Shown piece after piece: positions 45,902-62,503 of a stretch of DNA of 64,000 nucleotides. Where the stretch lies: assembly GCA_016212855.1 (NCBI GenBank), contig JACRDP010000029.1, positions 62,001 to 126,000 of the forward strand, given 5' to 3'. The DNA comes from Elusimicrobiota bacterium. GTDB lineage: Bacteria; Elusimicrobiota; Elusimicrobia; UBA1565; UBA9628. Every line of letters starts with the position of its first letter. Positions within the stretch are counted from its first letter, which is position 1. The notes below the pieces were generated by a model. The model saw nothing but the letters and a program-made list of their open reading frames with translations, was not told where the DNA came from and did not search any database. A program made the translations under genes and the position numbers.

Positions 45902-47500
45902 ATGATCGACGCCGACACGCCTCCGATTCAGTCCGCGGCCGACCGCGTCTCCGCGGACTTCAAGGCGAACGCCGCGCATCACGCCGGCCTGCTCAAGGAC
46001 CTCGAGGCCAGGCTCGTCCGGGCCCGGGCGGGCGGGCCGGTCAAGTCGGTCGACCTGCACCGCTCGCGGGGCAAGCTCACCGCTCGCGAGCGCGTGGAGC
46101 GCCTGCTCGACCACGGCTCTTATTGCCTCGAACTGTCGGCGCTGGCCGCGATGGGCCTCTACGACGACGAGGTCCCGGCCGCGGGCATGATCACGGGCCT
46201 GGGCGTGGTCAGCGGCCGGCTGTGCGTGATCGTCGCCAACGACGCGACGGTCAAGGGCGGCACCTACTACGCCGAAACGATCAAGAAGCACCTGCGCGCG
46301 CAGGAGGTGGCGCTCGAAAACCGCCTGCCCTGCGTGTACCTCGTGGACTCCGGCGGCGTGTTCCTCCCCAAGCAGGCCGAAGTGTTCCCGGACAAGGACC
46401 ACTTCGGGCGCATCTTCTACAACCAGGCCTGGATGTCCTCGCTCGAGATCCCGCAGATCGCGGTGGTCATGGGCATGTGCACCGCCGGCGGCGCCTACGT
46501 GCCCGCGATGGCCGACGAGTGCGTGATCGTGCGCAACCAGGGCACGATCTATCTCGGCGGCCCGCCCCTCGTTAAGGCCGCGACCGGCGAGGAGAGCACG
46601 GCGGAGGAACTCGGCGGCGGCGATATGCACTGCCGGGTTTCCGGCGTGACCGATCACCTGGCCGACAACGACGAGCACGCGCTGCAGATATGCCGCGCGA
46701 TCGTCGCCAATCTCAATGCTCCTTTATTTAATCTGGGCGAGGGCGAGTCGCCCCTCTATCCCGCCGACGATCTTTACGGGCTGGTGAATCGAGACCTCCG
46801 TCGTCCGTGCGATCCTCGAGAAGTGATCGCGCGTCTCGTGGACGGCTCCCGCTTCCACGAGTTCAAGGCCCTGTACGGCACGACGATGACCACCGGCTTC
46901 GCCAAGATCCACGGCCGGCCGGTGGGCATCCTCGCCAACCGCGGCATTCTTTTTTCAGAGGCCGCGCTCAAGGGCGCGCACTTCATCGAGCTGTGCGACC
47001 AGCGCAAGATCCCGCTTCTCTTCCTCCAGAACATCACCGGCTTCATGGTCGGCAAGGAGTTCGAGCAGGCCGGGATCATCAAGCACGGCGCCAAGCTCGT
47101 CCAGGCCGTCTCGACCGCGCGCGTGCCCAAAATAACCGTGATCGTCGGCTCCTCCAACGGCGCCGGCAACTACGCGATGTGCGGCCGCGCCTTCGGCGCG
47201 CGCTTCCTGTTCACCTGGCCGAACGCGCGCATCTCGGTGATGGGCGCCGACCAGGCCGCGACGGTCATGACCATCATCAAGCGCGCCAAGCAGGCGCTCA
47301 CGGCCGACGAAGAAGCCAAGATCCAGGCGCCGATCCGCGCCCAGTATGAGGCCGAGGGCCATCCGTATTACGGCACCGCTCGCCTGTGGGACGACGGGAT
47401 CATCGCGCCCGCCGACACGCGCCAGGTCCTCGCCATGGCGCTGGCCGCGGCCGCGCACGCGCCGATCGGCGAGCTCCATCGACCCGTGTTCCGGATGTAA
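45902..47500 (+). CDS. mccB: acyl-CoA carboxylase carboxyltransferase subunit (methylcrotonyl-CoA carboxylase beta type)
   Basis: [110 protein letters not shown]. Confidence 0.93.
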
Positions 47501-48282
47501 TGGTGGAATACCAGCACCTGAAGGTTCACGCCGGCCCCGTCACCAAGGTGACGCTCTCGCGCCCCGAGCTGCGCAACGCGATGAGCGACGAGACCTTGCG
47601 CTCGTTGACCTTGGTCTTCCGCGAGATCGCGTCCAATCCCGAGGTCCGCGCCGTGATCGTGACGGGCGGCGGCAAGGATTTCTGCGCCGGCGCCGACATC
47701 AACTGGATGAAGGCCTCGGGCAAGCTCTCTACCGAGGAGGGCAAGAAGGACGCCCGCCTGCTGGCCGACATGCTTTCGGCCGTCGACGACTGCCCCGTCC
47801 CCGTCATCGTCGCGGCGCAGGGCAACTGCTTCGGCGGCGGCATCGGCCTGCTCGCCGCCTGCGACATCGCCCTCGTCTCCGAAGACGCGAAGATGTCGTT
47901 CTCCGAGTGCCGCCTGGGCATCATGCCCGCCGTCATCTCCAGCTGGGTGCTCCCGAAAATCGGGATCGCCAACGCCCGCCGCTACTACCTGACCGCCGAG
48001 GTGTTCGGCGCGAAGGAAGCCGTGGCCATGGGCCTCGCCCACGAGGAGGTCAAGCCCGAGGAGCTGTATCTCAAGGCCGACGCGGCCGTCGCCAACATCA
48101 TGAAGTGCGGCCCCAACGCCGTGCGCACGGCCAAGGCGCTGCTGCCGCGTCTCAGGCCTCTCGGTCTCAACCAGCAGATCGGCCTGACGGTCGACACGCT
48201 CGTGCGTCTGCGCTCCTCGGCCGAAGGCCAGGAGGGCCTCGCCGCCTTCCTCGAAAAACGCGCTCCCGAATGGACGCGGTAA
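47500..48282 (+). CDS. enoyl-CoA hydratase/isomerase family (methylglutaconyl-CoA hydratase candidate)
   Basis: [94 protein letters not shown]. Confidence 0.9.
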   Translation: MVEYQHLKVHAGPVTKVTLSRPELRNAMSDETLRSLTLVFREIASNPEVRAVIVTGGGKDFCAGADINWMKASGKLSTEEGKKDARLLADMLSAVDDCPVPVIVAAQGNCFGGGIGLLAACDIALVSEDAKMSFSECRLGIMPAVISSWVLPKIGIANARRYYLTAEVFGAKEAVAMGLAHEEVKPEELYLKADAAVANIMKCGPNAVRTAKALLPRLRPLGLNQQIGLTVDTLVRLRSSAEGQEGLAAFLEKRAPEWTR

Positions 48283-49166
48283 AACCCAGGCCGACGCCGC
48301 GCCTCGTCGAGGTCGGCCCGCGCGACGGGCTGCAGAGCGAGAAGGGCGTCGTCTCCCTCGAGGCGAAGGTCGCATTCGTGGACGCGCTCTCCGAGACCGG
48401 GCTCAAGGAGATCGAGTCGGGCGCCTTCGTCAACCCGAAGTCCGTGCCGCAGATGGCGAACTCCGAGCAGGTGTTCGCGCGTATCAAGCGCAAGCCGGGC
48501 GTGATCTACTCCGCGCTCGTGCCCAACGAGATCGGCCTCGACCTGGCGCTCGCGTGCAAGGCCGACAAAATCAACGTCTTCACCGCGGCGACGGAGTCCT
48601 TCAACCAGAAGAACATCAAGGCCTCGATCAAGGAGTCCATCGAGCGCTTCAAGCCCGTCGTCCTGCGCACGCGTCAGGCGAAGCTGCCCGTGCGCGGCTA
48701 CATTTCGACCGCCTTCTGGTGCCCGTACGAGGGCCAGGTGAAGCCCGAGAAGGTCGTCGAGGTCGTCAAGATGCTCTCCGGCATCGGCGTCGCCGAGTTC
48801 TCCATCGGCGACACGATCGGCAAGGCGTCGCCCGACGAGGTCCGAAAGCTTCTGTTCCTGCTGTGCAAGGCCGTGCCCAAGGACAGCATCTACCTCCACT
48901 TCCACAACACCTTCGGCCGCGCGGTGGCCAACGCGATCGTGGCGTGGAAAACCTTCGGCATCACCGGCTTCGACTCCTCGACGGGGGGGGTCGGCGGCTG
49001 CCCTTACGCGCCCGGCGCGTCGGGCAACGTGGCCACCGAGGCGCTCGTCTCCGCGTTTAAGGCGGCGGGCTCCGATACCGGCGTCGATGAGGCGAAGCTC
49101 AAGGCCGCCGCCGTCGCCCTGTTCAAGCACCTCGGCCGCGCGCCGGGCACCCGCCCGCCCAAATAA
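48270..49166 (+). CDS. mvaB: hydroxymethylglutaryl-CoA lyase
   Basis: PRLVEVGPRDGLQSEKGVVSLEAKVAFVDALSETGLKEIESGAFV; DTIGKASPDEV; GGCPYAPGASGNVATE. Confidence 0.95.
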   Translation: MDAVKPRPTPRLVEVGPRDGLQSEKGVVSLEAKVAFVDALSETGLKEIESGAFVNPKSVPQMANSEQVFARIKRKPGVIYSALVPNEIGLDLALACKADKINVFTAATESFNQKNIKASIKESIERFKPVVLRTRQAKLPVRGYISTAFWCPYEGQVKPEKVVEVVKMLSGIGVAEFSIGDTIGKASPDEVRKLLFLLCKAVPKDSIYLHFHNTFGRAVANAIVAWKTFGITGFDSSTGGVGGCPYAPGASGNVATEALVSAFKAAGSDTGVDEAKLKAAAVALFKHLGRAPGTRPPK

Positions 49167-49349: not shown

Positions 49350-49952
49350 TTACTGAGTCAGGCCGGCCTTCTTCATCGCGGGCGCGGAGTTGGCGGCGAT
49401 CCCGTCGATCTGCGCCTGCGACCAGGTCGAGTGGAACGGGTCCACGACGATGCGCGCGGCCTGCAGCTTCCAGACTCCGTTCTCCTTGGCGCTGACGGCG
49501 TACCAGTTGGAGTTGAAGTCGTAGGTCTTGCTCTCGCGGCCCTTCGCGCCGGCGACGTCGGTCACGAGGTGCTCCTTCGCGGTGCCGAAGGAGAACGCGT
49601 AGCCGCCGACGAAAATGCTGTCGAGGGGCTCGAGCGTCGCGGTGTACTGGCCGCGCAGCTTCGGGCCGATGCCGACGATCTCCTTCATCGTCTTCCAGTA
49701 CGTCTGGAACTCGTTGAAGCTCGTCACCTTCTGGCCGGTCGCCATCGTCGCGCTGAAGCTCGAGCCGATGTGGGGGGCGAGCTGGGTCATGTCGTCGCGG
49801 TTGACGGCGTCCTCGTAGGCGACCTTGATCTTGCGCAGCTCCGCCTTGTCGGCGTCGGTCTGCGCGAAGACGTTGTGCGCGGTGACGGCGACGAGGGTCA
49901 GGCCGAGAACGGCGCCGAGTGCGAGTGCGAAACGTTTGATCCGCTTGGTCAT
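49350..49952 (-). CDS. secreted SnoaL/NTF2-like protein
   Basis: MTKRIKRFALALGAVLGLTLVAVTAHNVFAQTDADKAELRKIKVAYEDAVNRDDMTQLAPHIGSSFSATM. Confidence 0.65.
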   Translation of the reverse strand: MTKRIKRFALALGAVLGLTLVAVTAHNVFAQTDADKAELRKIKVAYEDAVNRDDMTQLAPHIGSSFSATMATGQKVTSFNEFQTYWKTMKEIVGIGPKLRGQYTATLEPLDSIFVGGYAFSFGTAKEHLVTDVAGAKGRESKTYDFNSNWYAVSAKENGVWKLQAARIVVDPFHSTWSQAQIDGIAANSAPAMKKAGLTQ

Positions 49953-50075: not shown

Positions 50076-50831
50076 ATGGAAGCGGCCCGGCCGAGGCTGA
50101 CGAGCGACGTCGTTGCCGCGGACTCGCTGGCGGCGCAAGAGACGGACCGCCTCTTTTCCCTGTATGCGGCCCATTACGACGCGGCCGACCGGGCCCGTTT
50201 CGAAGCCGACCTCGCCGCCAAGGACCACGTCATCCTCCTGCGCGACGCCGGATCCGGACGGATCAACGGCTTCTCGACGCAGAAGCTCGTCCGCGCGGGC
50301 GGCGCCCGGGCCCTGTTCTCGGGCGACACCATCATCGACCCGGCCTGCTGGGGCGAGCAGGAGCTCGTGAAGGCCTGGAGCCGCTACGCCGGCCGCCTCC
50401 TGGCCGAGGAGAACTCGCCGCTGTGGTGGCTGCTGATCTCGAAGGGCCACCGCACCTACCTTTACCTACCGCTGTTCTTCGCCGAGTATTGGCCGCGCCT
50501 CGAAGGGCCGGTTCCGGAGAACGTCGCGGCCTTGATGGGCGCCTTCGCGACGGCTAAATTCGGCGAATATTGGGATGCCTCGCGCGGCATCCTGTCCTTC
50601 CCCGAATCCATGGGCCAGCTCACGCCCGCCTTGGCCGAGGTGACGGCCGGGCGCAAGGACGATCCGCGCGTGAGCTTTTTCCTCGAGAAGAATCCCGGCT
50701 ACGCGCGCGGCGAGGAGCTCGTGTGCCTGGCCGAGATCTCGCCGGCGAACATGCGCTCGGTCGCTGCGCGCGCCCTGAAAGAAGGGCTGGCGATGGGGCC
50801 TTTGCCCAGGCAGGCCGCGTGCTCGATCTAA
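50076..50831 (+). CDS. hypothetical protein of the oxygenase operon
   Basis: MEAARPRLTSDVVAADSLAAQETDRLFSLYAAHYDAADRARFEADLAAKDHVILLRDAGSGRINGFSTQKLV; no family recognised with confidence. Confidence 0.8.
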   Translation: MEAARPRLTSDVVAADSLAAQETDRLFSLYAAHYDAADRARFEADLAAKDHVILLRDAGSGRINGFSTQKLVRAGGARALFSGDTIIDPACWGEQELVKAWSRYAGRLLAEENSPLWWLLISKGHRTYLYLPLFFAEYWPRLEGPVPENVAALMGAFATAKFGEYWDASRGILSFPESMGQLTPALAEVTAGRKDDPRVSFFLEKNPGYARGEELVCLAEISPANMRSVAARALKEGLAMGPLPRQAACSI

Positions 50832-52903
50832 TCATCCGCGGCGGGACGGTGTTCGACGGGGCGGGGAGCCCGCGCCGCCGCGCCGATGTCGGCGTGCGCG
50901 CGGGCCGCGTGGTTCGCGTCGCCGAAAGCGTCACCGAGCCCGCGGCCGAGACCGTGGACGCGACGGGCCTGTGGGTGGCGCCGGGCTTCGTGGACATCCA
51001 CACCCACTACGACGTCGAGGTCGAGATCGCCCCCGGGCTCACCGAGTCCACCCGGCACGGCGTGACGAGTGTCGTGATGGGCAACTGCAGCCTGTCGTTG
51101 ACGGTGGGCGCGCCCCAGGACCTGGCCGACATTTTCCTGCGCGTCGAGAACATCCCCGGCCCGCTCGTGCGCCGCTGGCTGAGCGAGACCGCCGGCTGGA
51201 GCGGACCCGACGAGTATTTCGAGCATCTGGCGGCTTTGCCGCTCGGCCCCAACGTCGCCGCTTTGCTCGGCCACAGCGCTCTGCGCGCTTCGGTGATGGG
51301 CCTGGAGCGCAGCCTCCGCGAATTCGCGACGCCGCGCGAGCTCGAGCGCATGGAAGACCTCGCCGCGACCGCCTTCGAGGCCGGCGCGCTCGGCATCTCG
51401 GTGGACATGGTGCCGTGGCACATGATGAGCGGCAAGTTCGCCGGACGCACCGTGCCCTCCCAGCACGCCGGCTTCACGGAGTACGCGCGTCTGGCCGAGC
51501 TGTGCCGAAGACACGACCGGGTTTTCCAGGTGACGCCCAACCCTCAAAAGCCTTGGACGATATTTTGGATATTGTGGCTCGCGATGGGAGCGTTCCGCTC
51601 ACCGTTACGAGTCACCATCCTCACCGCCCTCGACGCCGTTCACAACCGCTGGCTCTGGCGTCTCTTCCCGATCTGTTTGTTCGTTTTCAATCGAATCTTG
51701 GGCTGCAACATAAGGTTCCAGACCTTGACCGAGCCGTTCACCATGCGCGCCGACGGTCCGTTGACGCCGCTGTTCGAAGAGTTCCCGGCCGGCGTCATGC
51801 TCAACGATTTGGCCGCCTCCGACGCGCGAAAGGCCCTTTGGCGCAATCCCCGCTTCCGCGCGCAGTTCCGGCACGAATGGCTCCATCATCCCTTCCGTAC
51901 CTTCCACCGCGATCTTTCGTTGATGACCGTGATCGGAGCGCCCGATCCGTCCTTGGTCGGGAAGCACTTCGCCTTGCTCGCCGAGCGCCGCTGCTCCGAT
52001 CCCCTCGATCTCTTCATGGACCTTCTGCGCGATTACGACGTCGACCTGCGCTGGGAGGCCACCGGCGCCAACGACCGCCCCGGCCCGCGCCGCGCCTTGC
52101 TCTCGCACCCTCACATTTTGCCCGGCTTCACCGACGCCGGCGCCCACGTGCGCAACATCGGCTACTACGACGGCCCTCTCACGCTCCTCAAAGACGCCGT
52201 GCAAAGCGGCTTCATGACCCCCGAGCGCGCCATCTCCCGCTGCACCGGCGAGGCCGCCGCGTGGTTCCGTCTGGACGCGGGGCTCTTGAAAGAGGGTTCG
52301 CGCGCGAACATCATTCTTCTTGACCCCGCGCGACTGATGGATCCGCCCGCCGAGCCTCTCGAGATCGAGGACCCTCTGCTCGACGGCGCCCGCCGCATGG
52401 TCAAACGCCAGCATCCCGATCTGGTGAGACGCGTGTTCGTGAACGGGACGCTTCTCAAGCCCGTGCCGACGCTCGAGGCCGCGGCCCGCCTGCGCCGCTC
52501 GCGCCCCGACGACAGCCCCGAGCCGAGCCCGTTCGCGGAATATTGGGACGCCTTCCTCGTGAAGCATCGCGACCCGCGCAATATTTTCCTGCACTGCGTG
52601 GGCGTCGCTTTGTTCTACACCCCGCTCGCCGCGGTTCTTTTCGGAAGCAGTCCGTGGTGGCTGGCCCTGCTTCCTCTGTCCCAGCTCGCCGGCCTGCTCG
52701 GCCACGCCTTGTTCGAGCGGAGCCCGATCGATCCCTTCGACGCCGTGTTCACTTTGCGCGCCAGCTGGGCTCTCAATAAAATGTTCGTTCTGGTTCTCGC
52801 CGGCCGCTACCTCGCCCAGGCGGACCGCGCCGCCGCCCGCCTGGAAAAATGGCGCGCGAGCCGCCGGGCGCCGCGCCGCGCGCGGGAGGCCGTCCTTGCC
52901 TAG
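50819..52903 (+). CDS. amidohydrolase (N-acyl-amino-acid deacylase-like) fused to Mpo1/DUF962-like membrane domain
   Basis: GTG start; LDLIIRGGTVFDGAGSPRR...GFVDIHTHYD...LPGFTDAGAHVRNIGYYDG; C-terminal FAEYWDAFLVKHRDPRNIFLHCVGVALFYTPLA...GHALFERSPIDPFDA. Confidence 0.8.
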   Translation: MLDLIIRGGTVFDGAGSPRRRADVGVRAGRVVRVAESVTEPAAETVDATGLWVAPGFVDIHTHYDVEVEIAPGLTESTRHGVTSVVMGNCSLSLTVGAPQDLADIFLRVENIPGPLVRRWLSETAGWSGPDEYFEHLAALPLGPNVAALLGHSALRASVMGLERSLREFATPRELERMEDLAATAFEAGALGISVDMVPWHMMSGKFAGRTVPSQHAGFTEYARLAELCRRHDRVFQVTPNPQKPWTIFWILWLAMGAFRSPLRVTILTALDAVHNRWLWRLFPICLFVFNRILGCNIRFQTLTEPFTMRADGPLTPLFEEFPAGVMLNDLAASDARKALWRNPRFRAQFRHEWLHHPFRTFHRDLSLMTVIGAPDPSLVGKHFALLAERRCSDPLDLFMDLLRDYDVDLRWEATGANDRPGPRRALLSHPHILPGFTDAGAHVRNIGYYDGPLTLLKDAVQSGFMTPERAISRCTGEAAAWFRLDAGLLKEGSRANIILLDPARLMDPPAEPLEIEDPLLDGARRMVKRQHPDLVRRVFVNGTLLKPVPTLEAAARLRRSRPDDSPEPSPFAEYWDAFLVKHRDPRNIFLHCVGVALFYTPLAAVLFGSSPWWLALLPLSQLAGLLGHALFERSPIDPFDAVFTLRASWALNKMFVLVLAGRYLAQADRAAARLEKWRASRRAPRRAREAVLA

Positions 52904-53486
52904 GCGCATCGCCCTGACGGCCGCGGTGATGACCGCGATCAGCGCCGCCTACATTATTGTTAATCATATTCATCTCCGCGCACCGGTTCTCCTTCCGTTG
53001 TCTTTCGTCGACCGTGCCGTTGCGTTCTCCCCGTGGGCCATGCCGGTGTACCTGTCCCATTTTATTTTCCTGCCCATTGCCTTGCTGACCGCGCGTTCTG
53101 AATCCGTCTTCTTCCGCGGCCTCAAGGCCATGGCGATCGCGACCGCGCTCGCCTGCGTCGTCTTCGTCGCTTACCCCACGACCTTTCCGCGCGTCGAGTC
53201 CGCGGGCTTCTGGTTCGGCCTCCTCAACTTCATCGACACCCCCGCGAACTGCTTTCCGTCGCTGCACGTCGCCATGGCCGCGATCGCCGCGTGGGTCCTC
53301 CATGACGACGGCCGCCCTTGGGCCCCGGCCGCCGCCGTCTGGGCGGCCGCGATCATCGCCTCGACCGTCCTGGTCAAGCAGCACTACGCCGTCGACTCTG
53401 GAGGGGGCCTGCTTCTCGCCGCTTTATCAGCGCGCCTGGCCTCGCGGCCCGCGCCCGAACCCGTGCCCGCCGGAGAACCCGCATGA
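52896..53486 (+). CDS. PAP2-superfamily phosphatase-like membrane protein
   Basis: NCFPSLHVAMAAIAAWVL...STVLVKQHYAVDSGGG. Confidence 0.8.
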   Translation: MPRRIALTAAVMTAISAAYIIVNHIHLRAPVLLPLSFVDRAVAFSPWAMPVYLSHFIFLPIALLTARSESVFFRGLKAMAIATALACVVFVAYPTTFPRVESAGFWFGLLNFIDTPANCFPSLHVAMAAIAAWVLHDDGRPWAPAAAVWAAAIIASTVLVKQHYAVDSGGGLLLAALSARLASRPAPEPVPAGEPA

Positions 53487-54664
53487 ACTCAGCCTTGCTT
53501 CAGCGCCACTCGAAGTCCCTGCTCGACGACTCGCAGACGATGCGTAAGCTCGCTCTGAATCATTCCCGCAACAAGGCGCAGGACCACACGCGCCTGATGG
53601 ACGAGGCCGCGGCCGCCTTCAAATACGAGGACTGTCGAGACGAAATGTGGAACCCGGAGCAGTTCTCTTTGCTCCACGGCACCCCGCTGTGGGAGCAGTG
53701 CACGCCCGCCCAGCGCGTTCTGCTGAATCAACTGTACTGGGTCGCTTATTATGCGCAGATCATCTCCGCCGAGATCGCCACCATCCTCCTCAATCAAACC
53801 GCCGGCGCGGGCCTCTATACCTTGGAGGACTTCCGCCCCGTGTGCGACACGCTCGACCTGGAGACCTCGCAGGAGCGCGCGCACATCAACGCCTTCAAGA
53901 AGGTCGCCGAGGAAGTCGAGCAGAAGGTGTTCGGCGAGCGCATCTTCACCTACCCGATGCGCTCGATGTACGCGCAGACCATGGTGTTCGCCGACACGAA
54001 CCAGATCAAGGACTACTGGCGAAATCTGCAGCTGCGTTTTTACACGCAGCTGTCCGCGGGCAACGCCTTCATCGGCTGCCAATATTTCACCGTGCGCGGC
54101 ATCCGCACCCTCAACGGCAAGATCGTCCAGCACGCGCTCTCGCGCTACTACATGACGCACCCGGACCAGGACAACGCGCCGATCCCCTCGAAGATCAGCT
54201 ACTTCCACTTCATGGACGAGTCCTACCACTTCAACAGCTCGGGCATCGTCTCCCACGACGTGGTCAAGACGCTCAAGGCGCCGACCGCCTTCGAACGCTT
54301 CGTCGCCAACAAGACCTTGGCCGGCTGCCAGGAAGACCATTTCCACTTCTCCTCGGCGATCAACGGCATCTTCTGGTACGACCCGGCTTTGTTCGGCGCG
54401 ATCTACAAAGTCCTGCGCTCGCCCGCCTTCGGGCTCGACGACGGCGGCGCTCGCCTCATGCTCGAGGCCTGCTTCGCCCGCGACAACGACGGCGTCCAGG
54501 CGAGCTATCGCACGCACCGCGAAGCGGTGCACTCCTACAAGGCCTACCTGGCCGACCTTTCCCACGTCTCGGCGCACAACAAAGAGATGCGCCGGATGTC
54601 CGCGAGCGACGTTCCCGGCTACCTGGCGCGCAACCGCGCGGCCCTGGCCCGCTTCCGCCCATGA
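53483..54664 (+). CDS. AurF-like diiron oxygenase
   Basis: MNSALLQRHSKSLLDDSQTMRKLALNHSRNKAQ...ETSQERAHINAFKKVAEEVE...FHFMDESYHFNSS...QEDHFHFSSAING: helical E/H ligand pattern. Confidence 0.65.
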   Translation: MNSALLQRHSKSLLDDSQTMRKLALNHSRNKAQDHTRLMDEAAAAFKYEDCRDEMWNPEQFSLLHGTPLWEQCTPAQRVLLNQLYWVAYYAQIISAEIATILLNQTAGAGLYTLEDFRPVCDTLDLETSQERAHINAFKKVAEEVEQKVFGERIFTYPMRSMYAQTMVFADTNQIKDYWRNLQLRFYTQLSAGNAFIGCQYFTVRGIRTLNGKIVQHALSRYYMTHPDQDNAPIPSKISYFHFMDESYHFNSSGIVSHDVVKTLKAPTAFERFVANKTLAGCQEDHFHFSSAINGIFWYDPALFGAIYKVLRSPAFGLDDGGARLMLEACFARDNDGVQASYRTHREAVHSYKAYLADLSHVSAHNKEMRRMSASDVPGYLARNRAALARFRP

Positions 54665-54969
54665 CCGAGACCTACGAGGTCGACTTCGGCGCGCTCGGCA
54701 AGGTGGAAGGCCGCCTGCCCCACGGCGCGTGCCTGTCCGAAGTCCTGACCATCGAGAACTCGCCTCTTCTTTTCGGCTGCCGCACCGGCATCTGCGGCAC
54801 CTGCATCGCCCGCGTCGACGCCAAGGGCGGAACCTTGCCGCCGCCGACCGAGGACGAAAAAGACGTGCTCTCCCTTTTATGCCCGAACGAACCGAAGGCG
54901 CGCTTGGCCTGCCAGATCAAGCTGAGCGCCGACCTCACGATCGAACCCATCAAGCTGACCCGCGACTGA
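54661..54969 (+). CDS. plant-type 2Fe-2S ferredoxin
   Basis: LLFGCRTGICGTCIARVD...RLACQIKL (Cx4Cx2C...C). Confidence 0.92.
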   Translation: MTETYEVDFGALGKVEGRLPHGACLSEVLTIENSPLLFGCRTGICGTCIARVDAKGGTLPPPTEDEKDVLSLLCPNEPKARLACQIKLSADLTIEPIKLTRD

Positions 54970-55982
54970 GCCTCAAGCGGTTCTGGCAGGTCGCGTGCCG
55001 CTCTTCGGAGCTGCGCGCGGACCGCCCTTTGCCGGCCGTGGTCTTCGGCGAGCATCTCGCGCTGTACCGCGGCCCGGACGGCGCGCCCGTCGCCGCGCAG
55101 GACCGCTGCCTGCATCGCGCGGGCATGCTGTCGAAAGGCGCGGTGCGAGACGGCTGTCTCGAATGCCCCTATCACGGCTGGACCTACGGCTCGCAGGGCA
55201 AGCTCGAGCGGGTTCCGTCGATGGGCGACGCCTCCGCTCCGGGCGGACGGCGCCTGCCCGGCCCCGAGGCGCTCGAGCGCGACGGCTACGTGTACGTCCG
55301 CTTCGAACTCGGCCCCGAGAACTTCGAGCCTTTCCGTATGCCGCATTGGGGGGAGAAGGGCTGGGGGCATGTCCGGCTGACGAATGTTTTCAAGAACGAC
55401 GTGACGAACTGCGTGGAGAACTTCGTGGATATTCCGCACACATCCTTCGTTCACCGCGGTTTATTCCGGTCCCCGAAGCGTCAGAAGCTCACGGCTTCGG
55501 TTGAACGCGCAAACGGCTCCGTGGTGACTCGCTATCACGGCGAGACGGATAATTTGGGGATCTACTCGTGGTTCCTGAACCCGAGCGGTCGGGAGATTTC
55601 GCATGTGGATTCGTTTCACATGCCGAACGTGACGTGCGTGGAATACGAGTTCGGTCCCCGGCGCCGGTTCGTGATCACCTCCCAATCCGTTCCCGCCGAA
55701 GGCGGGAAAACGACGGTGCACACCGATTTGGCCTACGATTACGGAATCTGGAACTGGATCGCGGGCCCGTTGGTCCGGCGCGCCGGCCAGGCCGTCATCG
55801 ATCAAGATTTGGAAATCCTCGCCGCTCAGCAGGAAGTGATGCGCCGCACGCCGGGAGAATTCTCCCACTCGCCCGCGGACGTCATCCATGTGATGATCGA
55901 ATCCGTCCGCCGCGATCTCGAGGCGGGGCGTGACCCGCGGCGGTTGCCCGGCATGTCCCAGGAGATAGAATTTTGGGTTTAG
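54966..55982 (+). CDS. Rieske 2Fe-2S oxygenase (CTG start proposed)
   Basis: LSLKRFWQVACRSSELRADRPLPAVVFGEHLALYRGPDG...CLHRAGMLSKGAVRDGCLECPYHGWTY; no ATG/GTG/TTG at the expected N-terminus. Confidence 0.85.
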   Translation: MSLKRFWQVACRSSELRADRPLPAVVFGEHLALYRGPDGAPVAAQDRCLHRAGMLSKGAVRDGCLECPYHGWTYGSQGKLERVPSMGDASAPGGRRLPGPEALERDGYVYVRFELGPENFEPFRMPHWGEKGWGHVRLTNVFKNDVTNCVENFVDIPHTSFVHRGLFRSPKRQKLTASVERANGSVVTRYHGETDNLGIYSWFLNPSGREISHVDSFHMPNVTCVEYEFGPRRRFVITSQSVPAEGGKTTVHTDLAYDYGIWNWIAGPLVRRAGQAVIDQDLEILAAQQEVMRRTPGEFSHSPADVIHVMIESVRRDLEAGRDPRRLPGMSQEIEFWV

Positions 55983-56689
55983 GCGCCGCCAGCCGTCACG
56001 TCGCAGGGCCTGCTATCCTCAAGGATAGTCGTCCTTCGGACGTCCGTCCGGGTTCATCGTTCATGCGGATGCTCGATCGTACCGCCGCCGAATGGTTGAT
56101 GGATATTTCCGGTTTATTCGTACAATCCGTCGCCGTTCCCGCCGCCGCGATTTATCTTGCCTCGGTTTGTCGCGGCACAGCGCCCCGCTATTCCGGAGCG
56201 CTTCATTTTTCGTGGGCTTGGGCGTTCCTTCTCAATTTCGTCGTCGTCGATTATCTGTACTACTGGAACCATCGTCTTCTCCACGGGCCGTTGTGGCGCT
56301 GGCACGCCGCCCACCACACCGCCAAGTCCATGGACGTCCTCATCACCAGCCGCAACACGCTGTGGACCCCGATCCTGATCGTTTATATTTGGGCCAACGC
56401 CGCGTTCCTGTATCTCCTCGCCGATCCGACGCCGTATCTCGCCGCCGTCGCGGTCTCCTCGCTTTTGGACGTGTGGCGCCACAGCGGCTTCGGCCGTTTC
56501 TCCAACGGAGTTCTCATCACGCCGGCCGACCACTCCTGGCATCACGGTTCCGGCCTCCCGAACGAAAACTTCGGCGCGAATTTCGCGCTGTGGGATCGCC
56601 TGCACGGCACGTATCGTAAAGGCGAAGCCCCGAAATCTTTGGGCCTCGAGCTCGAGGACAGTTTGTGGAAGAAGCTGGTGATGCCGTGA
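55973..56689 (+). CDS. fatty acid hydroxylase/sterol desaturase superfamily protein
   Basis: DYLYYWNHRLLHGPLWRWHAAHHTAKSMDV...DHSWHHGSGLPNENFGANFALWDRLHGT. Start uncertain: TTG 55973 or ATG 56062. Confidence 0.88.
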   Translation: MGLGAASRHVAGPAILKDSRPSDVRPGSSFMRMLDRTAAEWLMDISGLFVQSVAVPAAAIYLASVCRGTAPRYSGALHFSWAWAFLLNFVVVDYLYYWNHRLLHGPLWRWHAAHHTAKSMDVLITSRNTLWTPILIVYIWANAAFLYLLADPTPYLAAVAVSSLLDVWRHSGFGRFSNGVLITPADHSWHHGSGLPNENFGANFALWDRLHGTYRKGEAPKSLGLELEDSLWKKLVMP

Positions 56690-57309
56690 CCCTTAAAAGT
56701 TATATGGCCATGCTCTTCCCCGCAATATTGTTGGCCACCATCGGATTCTCCGCCGTTAAACTGTCCGTTCTTGGAACGCTGTCCGCCGTTTATCTCTTGC
56801 CGGTTTTGGTTTACCGTTGTTTCGTCGTTCTCTATCCGTTGGAGCTCGGCCTCTCGAACATGGCGGAGAAGAAGTTCTCCCCGTGGTGGGCCAGCCATCA
56901 GATCCAGCTCCTCTACACCGCCGTTCCAGTTCTCGAAGCCGTGCTGCGCATGATCCCCGGCGCCTACAGCGCCTGGCTCCGGTTGTGGGGGAGCCGCATC
57001 GGTTCTTCCGTGTATTGGACCCCGCGCATGGAGATCCATGACCGCGGTTTATTGAATATCGGCGACAACGTGATCTTCGGCCATAAGGTTGAATTGTACG
57101 GCCACACGGTCACTCCCAAGCGCTCGCGTCTCTTGCTCTACACCGGCCTCGTCACCGTCGGCTCCGGCGCCTTCGTCGGCGCCGGCTCAAGACTCGCCCC
57201 CGGCGTCGTCATCGAGCCCGGCGCCGTCGTTCCGATTTTGACCGACCTGTACATGAACGCCCGTTTTCCCATGACCAAGGAGGAGCTCGATGCGCCGCGT
57301 CCTGCTTGA
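56686..57309 (+). CDS. membrane-associated hexapeptide-repeat acyltransferase-like protein
   Basis: GTG start in GTGA overlap; GLLNIGDNVIFGHKVELYGHTVTP...TVGSGAFVGAGSRLAPGVVIEPGAVVPILTDL. Confidence 0.75.
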   Translation: MTLKSYMAMLFPAILLATIGFSAVKLSVLGTLSAVYLLPVLVYRCFVVLYPLELGLSNMAEKKFSPWWASHQIQLLYTAVPVLEAVLRMIPGAYSAWLRLWGSRIGSSVYWTPRMEIHDRGLLNIGDNVIFGHKVELYGHTVTPKRSRLLLYTGLVTVGSGAFVGAGSRLAPGVVIEPGAVVPILTDLYMNARFPMTKEELDAPRPA

Positions 57310-58861
57310 GCTCGCCCGGGCCGCGGCCCTTCTGGCCGGCGTGAAAGAGCGCCTCGCCTTCGAGCGCGCCCTGCGCGACCCGCGCAAAGCGCAGGACGCG
57401 GTGCTTGCCCGCGTCCTGAAAAGCCTCTCCGAGACGAGCTACGGCCGCGAGCGAGGTCTGAAGCCCGAGGACGACTACGCCTCCTTCGCCGCGAAACTCC
57501 CGATCGTCGATTACGACGCGCTGAAGCCGTACGTCGAAGAGCAGAAATCGACCGAGGCCTCCATCCTGTTCGAAGGGTCCGCGCGTTTCTACGAGCGCAC
57601 CTCCGGCAGCTCCGGCGGGAGCAAGGATATCCCGTACGGCGACCGGCTGTGGTCGTCCTTCCAGCGCGCGTTCTCGCTGTGGCTCGGCGATCTTCTCCTC
57701 AACGGCCCGCGGCTCAAGACCGGCCGGTGTTGGATCTCGGTGTCGCCCTGGGCCGAGCCGGGCAAGAAAACCGCGAAGGGCGTGCGCATCGGCCTCGACG
57801 ACGACGGCGAGTACGTGAAGGGCTGGCTCGGCAAGGTCCTGCGGCTGTTCTGGACGGTCCCGAGCGCGGTCCGCCACATCTGCGACCCCGACGAGTACAA
57901 GCTCGCCGTCGCGACCTATCTGCTGGCCGACGCCGAGCTGGAGATCGTCTCGGTCTGGAACCCGACCTTGTTCCTGCTCATGCTCGACACGATCGTCGAC
58001 TCGCGCGACGTCCTGCTCAAGCGGCTCGCCCAGAGAGGGACGGGCGCCGCGCGTCTGGACGCGCTGTGTTCCGCCCTGAGCGCGCCGGCGCGCAAGGACG
58101 TGGACTGGGGCCTGGTCTGGCCGGAGCTGAAGCTGATCTCGTCCTGGGACATGGCCGAAGCCGCCCGCCCCGCCGCCGCCCTCGCCGCGCTGTTTCCGCA
58201 CGCCTCGTTCCAGGGCAAGGGCCACCTCGCCACCGAGTCACCGGTCACCATACCGTGGATCGATTCCTGCTTCTGCCTGCCGCTCGTCGATTCCGTGTTC
58301 TTCGAGTTCGCCGACGCGTCCGGAAAAATACTGCGCCTGCACGAGCTGAAGACGGGCGCCGAGTACGACCTCATCGTCACGCCCGAAGGCGGCTTCGCCC
58401 GCTACCGCCTGGGCGACCGCGTGCTCGTGACGGATCGCCACCAGGCCACGCCCGCTCTCGCGTTGGCCGGCCGCTGCGACGACGTCTGCGATCTGGCGGG
58501 GGAGAAGCTCGACGCCCGCTTCGTGACGAAGGCGCTCGACACGGTGTGCCCCGGCGCGGCGTTTAGGACCTTGGTGCCCGTCCACGAGGATGGGCGAACC
58601 GGCCGCTACGCGCTCGTGCTCGATCATGGCGCCTGCTCGCCCGAGGCGCTCGACGAGGCCCTGCGCCTGTCGCCGCTGTACGACCACGCCCGTTCGCTCG
58701 GCCAGTTGTCCGCGCCGACGGTGAGCGTTCGGCCCGACGCGGCCGAGCGCTTCGGCCGCTTCTTCGCCGCGCGCGGCGCGCGCTGGGGGGGCGTCAAGCA
58801 GAACGCCCTCGTGCGCGATCCCGAGCACGGCCGCGAGCTGGCCCGGAGCCTCGATCTATGA
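57290..58861 (+). CDS. GH3-superfamily acyl-adenylating/amido synthetase-like protein
   Basis: SFAAKLPIVDYDALKPYVE...FYERTSGSSGGSKDIPYGDRLWSSFQRAF...LHELKTGAEYDLIVTPEGGFARYRLGDRVLV. Confidence 0.8.
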   Translation: MRRVLLELARAAALLAGVKERLAFERALRDPRKAQDAVLARVLKSLSETSYGRERGLKPEDDYASFAAKLPIVDYDALKPYVEEQKSTEASILFEGSARFYERTSGSSGGSKDIPYGDRLWSSFQRAFSLWLGDLLLNGPRLKTGRCWISVSPWAEPGKKTAKGVRIGLDDDGEYVKGWLGKVLRLFWTVPSAVRHICDPDEYKLAVATYLLADAELEIVSVWNPTLFLLMLDTIVDSRDVLLKRLAQRGTGAARLDALCSALSAPARKDVDWGLVWPELKLISSWDMAEAARPAAALAALFPHASFQGKGHLATESPVTIPWIDSCFCLPLVDSVFFEFADASGKILRLHELKTGAEYDLIVTPEGGFARYRLGDRVLVTDRHQATPALALAGRCDDVCDLAGEKLDARFVTKALDTVCPGAAFRTLVPVHEDGRTGRYALVLDHGACSPEALDEALRLSPLYDHARSLGQLSAPTVSVRPDAAERFGRFFAARGARWGGVKQNALVRDPEHGRELARSLDL

Positions 58862-59733
58862 AGACTATGCAGACGGTCAAAGAGACCGGCGCGTTGCTCG
58901 GCCTGTACGTCGGCCTCGGCAGCCGCGCCCCGCGCGTGTACGACCTGCTCTCCGAGCACAATCAGCTCGGCGAGAAGACCCTTTTCTTGAACCTGGGCTA
59001 CTGGGACGGACCTCAATCCTACGACGACGGCTGCCGCCGCCTGGCCGAAGTGCTGGGCGAGGCCGCGAAGCTCGGCCCCGGCGACGATCTCGTGGACTGC
59101 GGCTACGGCTTCGGCGACCAGGATTTTTACTGGGCCGAGCGCTTCAAGCCCAAGAGCATCATCGGCCTGAACATCACCGCCTCCCAGGTCGTCCGCGCCC
59201 GCGCGCGCTGCGCCGAACGGGGACTGAGTGGCCGCGTGGACTTGCGCGAGGGCTCAGCGACCGTGATGCCGCTGAAAGACGAGACCGCTCACAAGGTGAC
59301 CGCGCTCGAAACCGCTTTCCATTACCACACGCGCGAAGACTTCTTCCGCGAGGCCTTCCGCGTCCTCAAGCCGGGCGGCCGTCTGGCGACCGCCGACATC
59401 ATTCCGAAGGCGGGACTGCGCCGCAGCCTTAAAATAGTCGTCGGCGACTGGTTCGGCCGCCGCTTCTGGCAGATTCCTTCCGCGAACATGTACGACAGCG
59501 TCGCGTACCGGCGCAAGCTCGAGGCCGCGGGCTTCGTCAATGTCAAGATCAAGAGCATCGCCGACCGCGTGTATCCCGGCTTCCGCGATTGCGCGCGCGT
59601 GCGGCTTCAGGCGCCGGAAATCCGCGAGCGCATGAACCCGCTCATCGCTTTCTTCTTCAAGGCGTCGCTCGATGAGATGGCCGGGCCCGGCGGTCCCGAC
59701 TACATCTTGGCGACGGCGGACAAACCCGCATGA
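58858..59733 (+). CDS. class I SAM-dependent methyltransferase
   Basis: LVDCGYGFGDQDFYWAERFKPKSIIGLNITASQVVRARARC...REAFRVLKPGGRLATADI. Confidence 0.92.
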   Translation: MKTMQTVKETGALLGLYVGLGSRAPRVYDLLSEHNQLGEKTLFLNLGYWDGPQSYDDGCRRLAEVLGEAAKLGPGDDLVDCGYGFGDQDFYWAERFKPKSIIGLNITASQVVRARARCAERGLSGRVDLREGSATVMPLKDETAHKVTALETAFHYHTREDFFREAFRVLKPGGRLATADIIPKAGLRRSLKIVVGDWFGRRFWQIPSANMYDSVAYRRKLEAAGFVNVKIKSIADRVYPGFRDCARVRLQAPEIRERMNPLIAFFFKASLDEMAGPGGPDYILATADKPA

Positions 59734-60752
59734 GCTACCGGATCTTCAACCGTCCCGACCGCTTCGCCGAGGGCTGGTACTGGGCGCTCGACGCCGCCGC
59801 GCTCGCGCGCGGCGGCGTCGCCAAGCTCAACTTGCTGGGCCGCGACCTCGCCTTGTACCGCGGCGAGGACGGCAAGGTCGCCGCGCTCGACGCGTTCTGC
59901 CCGCACATGGGCGCGCATCTCGGCGAGGGCAACGTCGACGGCTGCCGCCTGCGCTGCCTGTTCCACGACTGGGCCTACGAGCCCGACGGGCGCTGCTCCG
60001 ATGCGCCCGGCGCGGCCGGCGGCGTTCCGCCCTCGTCCGCCCGTACCTCGTCTTGGCCCGTGACCGAGGCCTACGGCCTGATCTGGGTGTGGACCGGGCC
60101 CGAGGCCCGGCGCCCGGCGCCGTTCGTGCCCGAGCTCGGCGACGAAGACGCGGACTGGTCGCACGGCTCCTCCTTCGTCAAGGACTGTCATCCGAACGTC
60201 GTGATGATCAACGCCATCGACGCGCATCACTTCAACACGGTCCACCACCTTCCCGTGAAGCTCGAGATGGAGCCGCGCACGCGCAACGAGAACAACATCG
60301 AGTTCGCCAATACGACGACGGTTCCGACGACGAGCCTTCTCGGCCGCCTGATCGCGCCGTTCTATCACGACGCGCTGACGTATTGGATGTCCTACTGGTA
60401 TGGGAGCACGGGCACGGTCACTTTGGGGCCGGACTTCCTGCACTTCCATATCCTCTTCGCACTTCGCGCCGCCGAAGGCGGCAAGACCGAGGGACGGACC
60501 GTGCTCGTCACCCGAAAGCGCGCGGGCCTTCACGGCTGGGCGCTGAACCGAGTCTTGCTGGCGCTCACGAACCTCGTCGGCTCCTACTTCGCGCACGGCG
60601 ACACCAAAATATTCCGCTCGATCAAGTTCGACCTGAAGACCCCGCTCGCCGCCGACCGGCCGATCCTGCGCTTCATCGAGCATCTCGAAAAACAGGCCGT
60701 GTCGCCGTGGTGCCGGCCCGTCGAGCCCGCGCGCGAACCGGCGGAGGCCTAA
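59730..60752 (+). CDS. Rieske 2Fe-2S oxygenase (second)
   Basis: LALYRGEDGKVAALDAFCPHMGAHLGEGNVDGCRLRCLFHDWAYEPDG; mononuclear iron motif NAIDAHHFNTVHH. Confidence 0.9.
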   Translation: MSYRIFNRPDRFAEGWYWALDAAALARGGVAKLNLLGRDLALYRGEDGKVAALDAFCPHMGAHLGEGNVDGCRLRCLFHDWAYEPDGRCSDAPGAAGGVPPSSARTSSWPVTEAYGLIWVWTGPEARRPAPFVPELGDEDADWSHGSSFVKDCHPNVVMINAIDAHHFNTVHHLPVKLEMEPRTRNENNIEFANTTTVPTTSLLGRLIAPFYHDALTYWMSYWYGSTGTVTLGPDFLHFHILFALRAAEGGKTEGRTVLVTRKRAGLHGWALNRVLLALTNLVGSYFAHGDTKIFRSIKFDLKTPLAADRPILRFIEHLEKQAVSPWCRPVEPAREPAEA

Positions 60753-61595
60753 GTGAAAACCGCTCTCGTGACGGGCTGTTCCTCGGGCTTCGGCAAAGGC
60801 ATCGTCGCCGGCCTGCTCGCCGACGGCTGGACCGTGATCGCCACCATGCGCGCGGCGGGCCGCCGCGCGGACCTCCTCTCCGCAGAGGCCGAGACGTACG
60901 GCGACCGGCTCCTCATTCGCGAGCTCGACATCGTCGACGCGTCTCAGCGGAAGGCCCTCGCCGTGGAATTCTCCCATCTCGACCTGCTCGTCAACAACGC
61001 GGGCTTCGGCGTGATGGGCGCGATCGAGGACCTCTCCGAAGAGCAGCTGCGCCGCCAGTTCGAGGTCAACTTCTTCGGGACCGTCTTCCTGACGCGCGAG
61101 TTCCTGCCCGCATTGCGCGTCTCCAAAGGCAAGGTCCTCATGATCTCCTCGATCCTCGGCCGCCAGTCCTTCCCGATGTCGGGCGCTTATTGCGCGAGCA
61201 AGTTCGCCTTGGAAGGGCTCTCGGAGTCCCTCGCCTACGAGCTCTCGCCTCACGGCGTGCAAGTCTGCCTCGTCGAGCCGGGGGGCTTTCGCACCAGCAT
61301 GGCCGACAACACGGTCTGGGGCGAAAAGACCGCCGATCCGGCGTCGCCGTACGCGGTTCAGAACGCGAATATGAAGCGCATGCGCGAGAAGATGATGTCC
61401 CGGCCGGGCGTTGCGCCCGGCGCCGTCGTGCGCCTCATCGTCAAGCTCGCCCGGAAGAACAAAATCCCGCGCCGCGCCCTCGTCGGCAAGGACGCCTTCG
61501 GGATGAACGCGTTCGCCTCCTTGCTTCCCGATCGCGTGGTCTCCTTCCTCTACACCCGCCTCTACGACAAGCTGCTGGCGAAGGCGCCCGCGTGA
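60753..61595 (+). CDS. short-chain dehydrogenase/reductase
   Basis: KTALVTGCSSGFGKGIVAGLLADGW; LVNNAGFGVMG; SGAYCASKFALEGLSESLAYEL. Confidence 0.93.
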   Translation: MKTALVTGCSSGFGKGIVAGLLADGWTVIATMRAAGRRADLLSAEAETYGDRLLIRELDIVDASQRKALAVEFSHLDLLVNNAGFGVMGAIEDLSEEQLRRQFEVNFFGTVFLTREFLPALRVSKGKVLMISSILGRQSFPMSGAYCASKFALEGLSESLAYELSPHGVQVCLVEPGGFRTSMADNTVWGEKTADPASPYAVQNANMKRMREKMMSRPGVAPGAVVRLIVKLARKNKIPRRALVGKDAFGMNAFASLLPDRVVSFLYTRLYDKLLAKAPA

Positions 61596-62503
61596 GCGAG
61601 CGCGTCCGCGTCCGCGCGGGCCTTTCTTTGGGCCGCCTTCCGGCGGGCCACAAGCTCAAGCCTTTGCTGGCGGCGGCCGCGTTCAAGGCGGGCGTCGAGA
61701 CGCCGCGTCTCGCCTTTCCCGACCGCGCCTGGGACGCGGCCTTTCACGGCCTCGATCGCGTGGGCGCATACCGAAAGCTTTCCTCAACCCGCCGCAAGGA
61801 CGTCCTCAAGCATTGCGCGAAGGGCCTCCTCTCCGAGTCCTGCCACATCGAGAAGCTCGGCCTCGCCTTCACCGCGAAGATGTCCTTGCTCTCGCGCACG
61901 GAAGACGAGCGTCAGCTGTACGCCCTCTTCGCCGCCGATGAGGCCCGCCACTTGAGCGAGATCTCGCGCTACCTTCCCGACGGGCCCTCCGCCGCGTCGG
62001 AGAATCCTTTTCTTCTCCTATTGGGAGAAATCATCGAGCGCGGCGATAAGCCCGGCCTCACCGCCTTGATCCAGGTCGTGCTCGAGGGCTGGGGCCTCAC
62101 GCATTACGGCTCTTTGGCCCGCGCCTGCCGCGACGAGGGCCTGCGCCGGACCTTGCGGCGAATCCTCAAAGACGAGGCGCTTCATCACGGCAGCGGCGTC
62201 GTGATCGCCTCGACCGAGCCGCTCGGCCGCTCCGAGCGGCGCGAAGTCGAAGCCTGGCTGCTGCGTCTGGCGCGCATGGTGCAGGCCGGGCCGCAGGCGG
62301 TCGTCGCCGCGCTCGGCCCGCTGTCGCGCCGGGAGCGCGAGAAGGCCTTCGCCGAGCTCTCGTGCGAGTCGCATTCCGCCGAGCGCCTGGCGCTTCTGCG
62401 CGGTCTCATCGCGTCGTGCGGGGAGACCCGCGCGATCGAGACGCTCGAGAAAGCCGGGACGCTGCGCCCGCTCGACGCGGCGGCCTGCGCGCGCCTGAGC
62501 TAA
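61592..62503 (+). CDS. ferritin-like diiron protein
   Basis: GTG start; SESCHIEKLGLAF...ADEARHLSEISRYL...EGWGLTHYGSL...LKDEALHHGSG (two E...ExxH pairs). Confidence 0.7.
   Translation: MSERVRVRAGLSLGRLPAGHKLKPLLAAAAFKAGVETPRLAFPDRAWDAAFHGLDRVGAYRKLSSTRRKDVLKHCAKGLLSESCHIEKLGLAFTAKMSLLSRTEDERQLYALFAADEARHLSEISRYLPDGPSAASENPFLLLLGEIIERGDKPGLTALIQVVLEGWGLTHYGSLARACRDEGLRRTLRRILKDEALHHGSGVVIASTEPLGRSERREVEAWLLRLARMVQAGPQAVVAALGPLSRREREKAFAELSCESHSAERLALLRGLIASCGETRAIETLEKAGTLRPLDAAACARLS

Follow-up and report, generated by a model that had tools for sequence, protein, structure and literature searches.

What might a bacterium make with two Rieske oxygenases, a fatty-acid hydroxylase and two ferritin-like diiron proteins encoded side by side? 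This question is raised by positions 50076-62503 of a 64,000-nt stretch of contig JACRDP010000029.1 (the window), which belongs to an Elusimicrobiota metagenome-assembled genome (MAG; 2.5-Mb, 73%-complete). Thirteen codirectional open reading frames (ORFs) on the plus strand, g01 to g13, fill this interval (Table 1). Ten of their 12 junctions overlap, by 4 nt at six ATG or GTG starts and at one CTG start (g05/g06), and by 8, 13 and 20 nt at the remaining ones; g11 and g12 abut, and g06 and g07 are separated by 80 nt if g07 starts at the conserved ATG at 56063. A sequence-only reading of this DNA had described an overlapping operon with no polyketide synthase (PKS), nonribosomal peptide synthetase (NRPS) or visible scaffold synthase. 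Pfam analysis of all 13 genes agrees, and it revealed no carrier protein among them. The families listed in that reading are present as well (PAP2, Fer2, two Rieske, FA_hydroxylase, hexapeptide, GH3, methyltransferase, short-chain dehydrogenase/reductase (SDR), amidohydrolase, Mpo1-like and, weakly, Ferritin_2), with the amendments that the Mpo1-like domain forms the C-terminus of the amidohydrolase g02 and that the first gene, left unnamed, encodes a GNAT-fold acyltransferase. Five of the six non-heme-iron enzymes that it had counted are clear, and the sixth is reached only if the Mpo1-like domain is included.

The 13-gene operon is real, and the ordered recurrence of its block in about 30 distant genomes is far beyond chance. 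As an answer to the opening question, we propose, with confidence evenly balanced, a carrier-protein-free cluster for a fatty-acid amide that undergoes oxidative tailoring. This amide would be an N-acyl amino acid or N-acyl amine lipid, and probably forms via a chlorinated intermediate or is itself chlorinated. To judge from its sequence, the cluster is genuine, conserved and orphan, and its central enzyme, g04, is reassigned from the AurF-like enzyme of the sequence-only reading to a homologue of the CylC-type dimetal halogenases.

Conservation of the block

The block is present in 34 genomes examined, which belong to Elusimicrobiota, Rokubacteria, two Myxococcota-type groups and Bdellovibrionota, and is, as judged by homology, conserved across phyla among predatory as well as soil bacteria. 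In the window's phylum, 3 of 342 genomes encode the g04 protein, which was also found in Rokubacteria, Myxococcaceae, Bacteriovoracaceae and deltaproteobacterial MAGs (one each). Searches centred on the latter three hosts detected it in 3/197, 26/290 and 5/237 genomes of the respective phyla, the second of these figures marking the Bdellovibrionota as a phylum in which the cluster is frequent. In the g04 tree the Rokubacteria copy is nested among the Elusimicrobiota copies (SH-like approximate likelihood ratio test, SH-aLRT, 95), indicating transfer between phyla.

Every one of the 33 loci compared has g06, g08 and g09. All but one, a locus truncated at the end of its contig, have g04 and g05 (32 loci); g07 and g13 were each seen in 31, g11 in 28 and the SDR gene g12 in 23. 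The GNAT gene g01 lies near or adjoins the cluster in 28 loci, a third Rieske gene occurs in 27 and a CAT-fold acyltransferase gene in 13. Strict g04-g05-g06-g07-g08-g09 collinearity was observed in 29 of 32 comparable loci; the genes are thus conserved together in relatives, a point on which the sequence-only reading had let its case depend. In contrast to this core, two genes are accessory: the PAP2 gene g03 was not found in the other loci of the 33-locus survey, and orthologues of the methyltransferase g10 (56-58%) are restricted to the two other Elusimicrobiota clusters. The amidohydrolase–Mpo1-like fusion recurs in two loci, L015 (57% over 700 aa) and L072 (43% over 701 aa).

Catalytic motifs are conserved across the loci in the ferredoxin (g05 C40, C45, C48, C84; 33 sequences), in the Rieske proteins (g06 CxH, CxxH and D155/H158/H163; 33 sequences), in the His boxes of the fatty-acid hydroxylase (g07 H100/H104, H111/H114/H115 and H187/H190/H191, numbered from 55973; 32 sequences), in the GH3 protein (g09 T104-SGS-G109/K112/P115Y116, T315E316 and R371Y372/D376; 33 sequences), in the SDR (g12 Y146/K150; 22 sequences) and in the ferritin-like protein (g13 E82/E87, E117xxH120, E165 and E195xxH198; 30 sequences). 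The stepwise, O2-dependent tailoring pathway that had been suggested for the operon is supported.

A sister-type cluster (L011:3040-15294, genome G036) encodes Rieske-1-like and Rieske-2-like proteins, GH3, a GNAT-like ORF, a radical-SAM/B12 protein, a fatty-acid desaturase and a hexapeptide protein, together with a genuine AurF-family protein (54.5 bits). In another genome of the window's genus (locus L006, genome G002), GH3 and g01-like GNAT genes are adjacent on a 2.9-kb contig, a hint that the two proteins act as a pair.

Identity of the diiron enzyme g04

The predicted fold of g04 is ferritin-like, with AurF/CmlI as the best Foldseek matches (probability 1.0), and the sequence-only reading had suggested an AurF-like amine N-oxygenase. 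An AurF-type N-oxygenation pathway would be in keeping with this common fold and with a weak Pfam AurF match. However, that match stays below the cut-off (21.3 versus 29.6 bits), and g04 matched no PDB chain by sequence, AurF included, even when a 38-sequence profile was used at E<=10. Moreover, the positions of AurF E196 and D135, two diagnostic residues, are both Gln in g04 (mapping via PMC12101540). We therefore consider amine N-oxygenation very improbable. A second, weak AurF-family match lies elsewhere in the window's own genome (G000:C10:10409-10666).

In contrast, g04 matches plasmid-borne CylC homologues of Gloeothece and Planktothrix, whose genes lie beside those for fatty acyl-AMP ligase (FAAL), acyl carrier protein (ACP) and PKS, at E 2e-39 and 3e-34. 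It also matches a Stanieria homologue beside sulfotransferase and cytochrome P450 genes (E 1e-44); such neighbourhoods are known architectures for CylC homologues (PMC8406957). This search of cyanobacterial plasmids, which returned FAAL/ACP- and P450-linked homologues plus one unannotated locus, yielded four plasmid-borne CylC homologues with 25-29% identity to g04. Dimetal-carboxylate (CylC/NocO) halogenases are recognised by the motifs ExxQExxH and HxxDExxH (PMC12101540, PMC12871659). Both are invariant, as E127xxQ130E131xxH134 and H242xxD245E246xxH249 in g04 numbering, in all 38 aligned proteins, comprising 34 Rieske-type and four FAAL/P450-type sequences. Sequence and motifs together identify g04 as a CylC-type dimetal-halogenase homologue rather than an N-oxygenase.

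Whether g04 chlorinates is a separate matter. At the position of NocO E252 (AurF E196), all 34 Rieske-type proteins have Gln (Q216 in g04) and all four FAAL/P450-type proteins have Glu; in the latter, the spacing of 30 to the motif Asp equals that from NocO E252 to D282. E252 is among nine essential residues of NocO, and the E252A variant is inactive (PMC12101540). The Rieske-type clade has thus lost one of nine residues of a proven halogenase and is also divided from the FAAL-type enzymes by a long branch in the g04 tree. Both observations speak against halogenation, and the Gln, taken with the inactive E252A variant, suggests that the clade may carry out a different C-H chemistry. In such a case the pathway type would be kept, with g04 oxidising its substrate by C-H hydroxylation, desaturation or in another way and the Glu-to-Gln change marking a shift of function inside the CylC superfamily; the many other oxygenases of the cluster fit this alternative too. 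However, the other eight active-site residues are invariant, including the halogenase-specific Gln (Q130), and loss of the fourth carboxylate would, if anything, keep the halide site open. We regard the oxidase as a possible but less probable assignment, and slightly favour chlorination by g04 over other oxidation. Because one of the nine residues is missing, halogenation is likely but not established and cannot be assumed, and since the E252 position differs, we file g04 as a homologue and not as a proven member of the halogenases.

The operon appears to correspond to a variant of previously described clusters, beside which it can be set by description only. Cyanobacterial "Rieske-containing" clusters were reported in 2021 to encode a sterol desaturase alongside one CylC homologue and 2-4 Rieske proteins, to lack carrier proteins and a known product, and to share their similarity cluster with a few deltaproteobacterial relatives; fatty-acid-derived substrates were proposed (PMC8406957). 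The operon, a candidate undescribed one in the sequence-only reading, is therefore only partly so: clusters of this general type had been published as orphan. Our literature search found no product for this cluster. The single CylC homologue, the sterol-desaturase/fatty-acid-hydroxylase protein, the acyltransferases and the lack of carrier protein or PKS are shared, as is the number of Rieske proteins, with two in the window and a third in most loci. In contrast, GH3, GNAT, ferredoxin and ferritin-like genes are near-constant here, and the clusters occur in Elusimicrobiota, Rokubacteria, Myxococcota and Bdellovibrionota instead of cyanobacteria and some deltaproteobacteria. The same paper reports no protein for substrate activation, and its main text does not contain "GH3" or "auxin". 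The GH3 and GNAT genes may fill this substrate-activation gap, at least outside cyanobacteria, with GH3 as a plausible candidate for the activation step that was left unnamed. What is new here is the full gene set, in which GH3 and GNAT recur as partners, together with its distribution and the clade-defining Glu-to-Gln change.

Candidate pathway and product

GH3 enzymes couple acids to amines. By its sequence, g09 is a member of the GH3 acid-amido synthetase superfamily with intact nucleotide-binding motifs: it passes the Pfam cut-offs for GH3 (PF03321) and GH3_M (PF23571), with GH3_C weak, and matches plant GH3.8 in the PDB (E 1e-14). A bacterial GH3 protein, OlsH, forms N-acyl-ornithine from a free fatty acid and ATP (PMC12493201). 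From these families we infer the amide product, its chlorination, the order of steps, the amine partner and all substrates of the following scheme. GH3 (g09) would activate its acid substrate, a free fatty acid or an acid scaffold, by adenylation and couple it to an amine, and the GNAT (g01) and hexapeptide (g08) enzymes could add further acyl groups. With electrons from the ferredoxin g05, g04 would cleave an unactivated C-H bond, with chlorination at that site as the most likely outcome, while the two Rieske oxygenases, the fatty-acid hydroxylase and the ferritin-like g13 may oxygenate or desaturate other positions, again with ferredoxin as electron source. The SDR g12 would set the alcohol/ketone state, the methyltransferase g10 would methylate, and the amidohydrolase g02 might trim or recycle the amide. 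In line with the last step, PDB sequence searches place g02 closest to N-acyl-D-amino-acid deacylases and D-aminoacylases (3gip, E 3e-30), which fits an amide-bearing pathway.

A modified, ornithine-lipid-like membrane aminolipid would use the same families differently, with GH3 as a lyso-lipid synthetase and the fatty-acid hydroxylase acting like OlsE, on the headgroup or on an acyl chain. Indeed, OlsH and OlsE are the only NCBIfam models matched by g09 and g07, and the planctomycete OlsH/OlsI/OlsG operon, a genuine lipid operon, also combines a GH3 protein having intact nucleotide-binding motifs with an N-methyltransferase (PMC12493201). However, the scores are far below the cut-offs (OlsH, NF052613, 24.9 versus 620 bits; OlsE, 56.5 versus 475), so that by score g09 does not qualify as an OlsH orthologue, which also weighs against the amide proposal. 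In addition, Pfam gave no OlsI-type alpha/beta-hydrolase match among the operon genes, several additional oxygenases are encoded, and the spread is very patchy within the window's phylum. An aminolipid is thus unlikely.

The sequence-only reading had also considered a sterol or terpenoid, prompted by the Rieske and SDR pair of bacterial sterol C4-demethylation (SdmA/SdmB). Such tailoring of a sterol, hopanoid or other terpenoid would agree with the adjacent Rieske and SDR genes, with SdmA as the top NCBIfam match for both Rieske proteins, with the resemblance of Rieske 2 to KshA and with a squalene-hopene cyclase in the window's own genome. However, the SdmA scores are 52.6 and 68.6 bits versus a cut-off of 600. 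The cyclase family was detected in just 7 of 32 cluster-bearing genomes and was not found in the apparently complete 3.44-Mb chromosome of one of them (G548), which argues against sterol or hopanoid substrates. We consider this option the most remote of those weighed here. A sphingolipid pathway was also rejected: an alpha-oxoamine synthase beside one cluster (L020) resembled serine palmitoyltransferase but is probably a 2-amino-3-ketobutyrate CoA ligase, and its family does not recur beside other loci.

Taken further, the proposed chlorinated amide leads to a tentative idea: the Gln at the seventh-ligand position may define a distinct, carrier-free dimetal-halogenase clade, unlike CylC/NocO halogenases in having no FAAL, ACP or PKS partner, that acts on GH3-made acyl amides and gives rise to chlorinated, polyoxygenated amide lipids of a class not seen before, common to Bdellovibrionota and other phyla. 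Carrier-free C-H halogenases are wanted as biocatalysts, and the orphan class was singled out for this reason (PMC8406957); the conserved Gln offers a sharp, testable contrast to the proven halogenases.

Gene table and neighbouring features

Table 1. Genes of the operon, with window coordinates, strand and predicted family.
Gene	Position	Strand	Family
g01	50076..50831	+	GNAT-fold N-acyltransferase; no Pfam match
g02	50819..52903	+	Amidohydrolase (D-aminoacylase / N-acyl-D-glutamate deacylase relative) with C-terminal Mpo1-like domain; Pfam Amidohydro_3, Amidohydro_1, Mpo1-like
g03	52896..53486	+	PAP2-family phosphatase/transferase; Pfam PAP2_3, 44.3 bits
g04	53483..54664	+	CylC-type ferritin-like diiron enzyme, dimetal-halogenase homologue, Rieske-type clade
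g05	54661..54969	+	2Fe-2S plant-type ferredoxin; Pfam Fer2
g06	54966..55982	+	Rieske oxygenase 1; Pfam Rieske and VanA_C; apparent CTG start, 4-nt CTGA overlap
g07	56063..56689	+	Fatty-acid hydroxylase / sterol desaturase superfamily; ORF open from 55973; Pfam FA_hydroxylase, E 7e-24
g08	56686..57309	+	Left-handed beta-helix (hexapeptide) acyltransferase; weak Pfam Hexapep
g09	57290..58861	+	GH3-type acid-amido synthetase
g10	58858..59733	+	S-adenosylmethionine-dependent methyltransferase; Pfam Methyltransf_11
g11	59730..60752	+	Rieske oxygenase 2; Pfam Rieske
g12	60753..61595	+	SDR; Pfam adh_short
g13	61592..62503	+	Ferritin-like diiron oxidase/oxygenase; weak Ferritin_2, below cut-off

The AlphaFold model of g01 (mean predicted local distance difference test score, pLDDT, 90.5) best matched the GNATs NatD and AAC(2') in Foldseek (E 4e-6). 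PDB sequence searches with g01 (as a profile), g07 and g13 gave no match. The nearest solved structures to g06 are NdmA, SxtDIOX and DdmC, and g11 matched KshA (E 8e-26) and SxtDIOX/SxtT (E 2e-21 to 8e-21). Against the Pls/PosA NRPS terminal-domain model, g08 scored 40.5 bits, under the cut-off.

The CTG of g06 overlaps the ferredoxin stop codon, and orthologues begin near the same residue. The operon's only real intergenic gap (window 55983-56062) contains two small hairpins, of which one has a TTCG loop; an RNA element between g06 and g07 was rejected, as its fold z-score of -1.0 is not significant. Upstream of the operon, a divergent gene (window 49350-49952, minus strand) encodes an apparently secreted 200-aa NTF2-like protein and is preceded by a promoter-like site, TTGACA-17-TATACT. 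A homologue of this protein adjoins the related cluster in L011 (32%, E 1e-21), and another adjoins that in L009 (E 1e-10). Further upstream (window 45902-49166, plus strand), carboxyltransferase, enoyl-CoA hydratase and HMG-CoA-lyase-like ORFs resemble a leucine-degradation operon, unrelated to the 13-gene operon.

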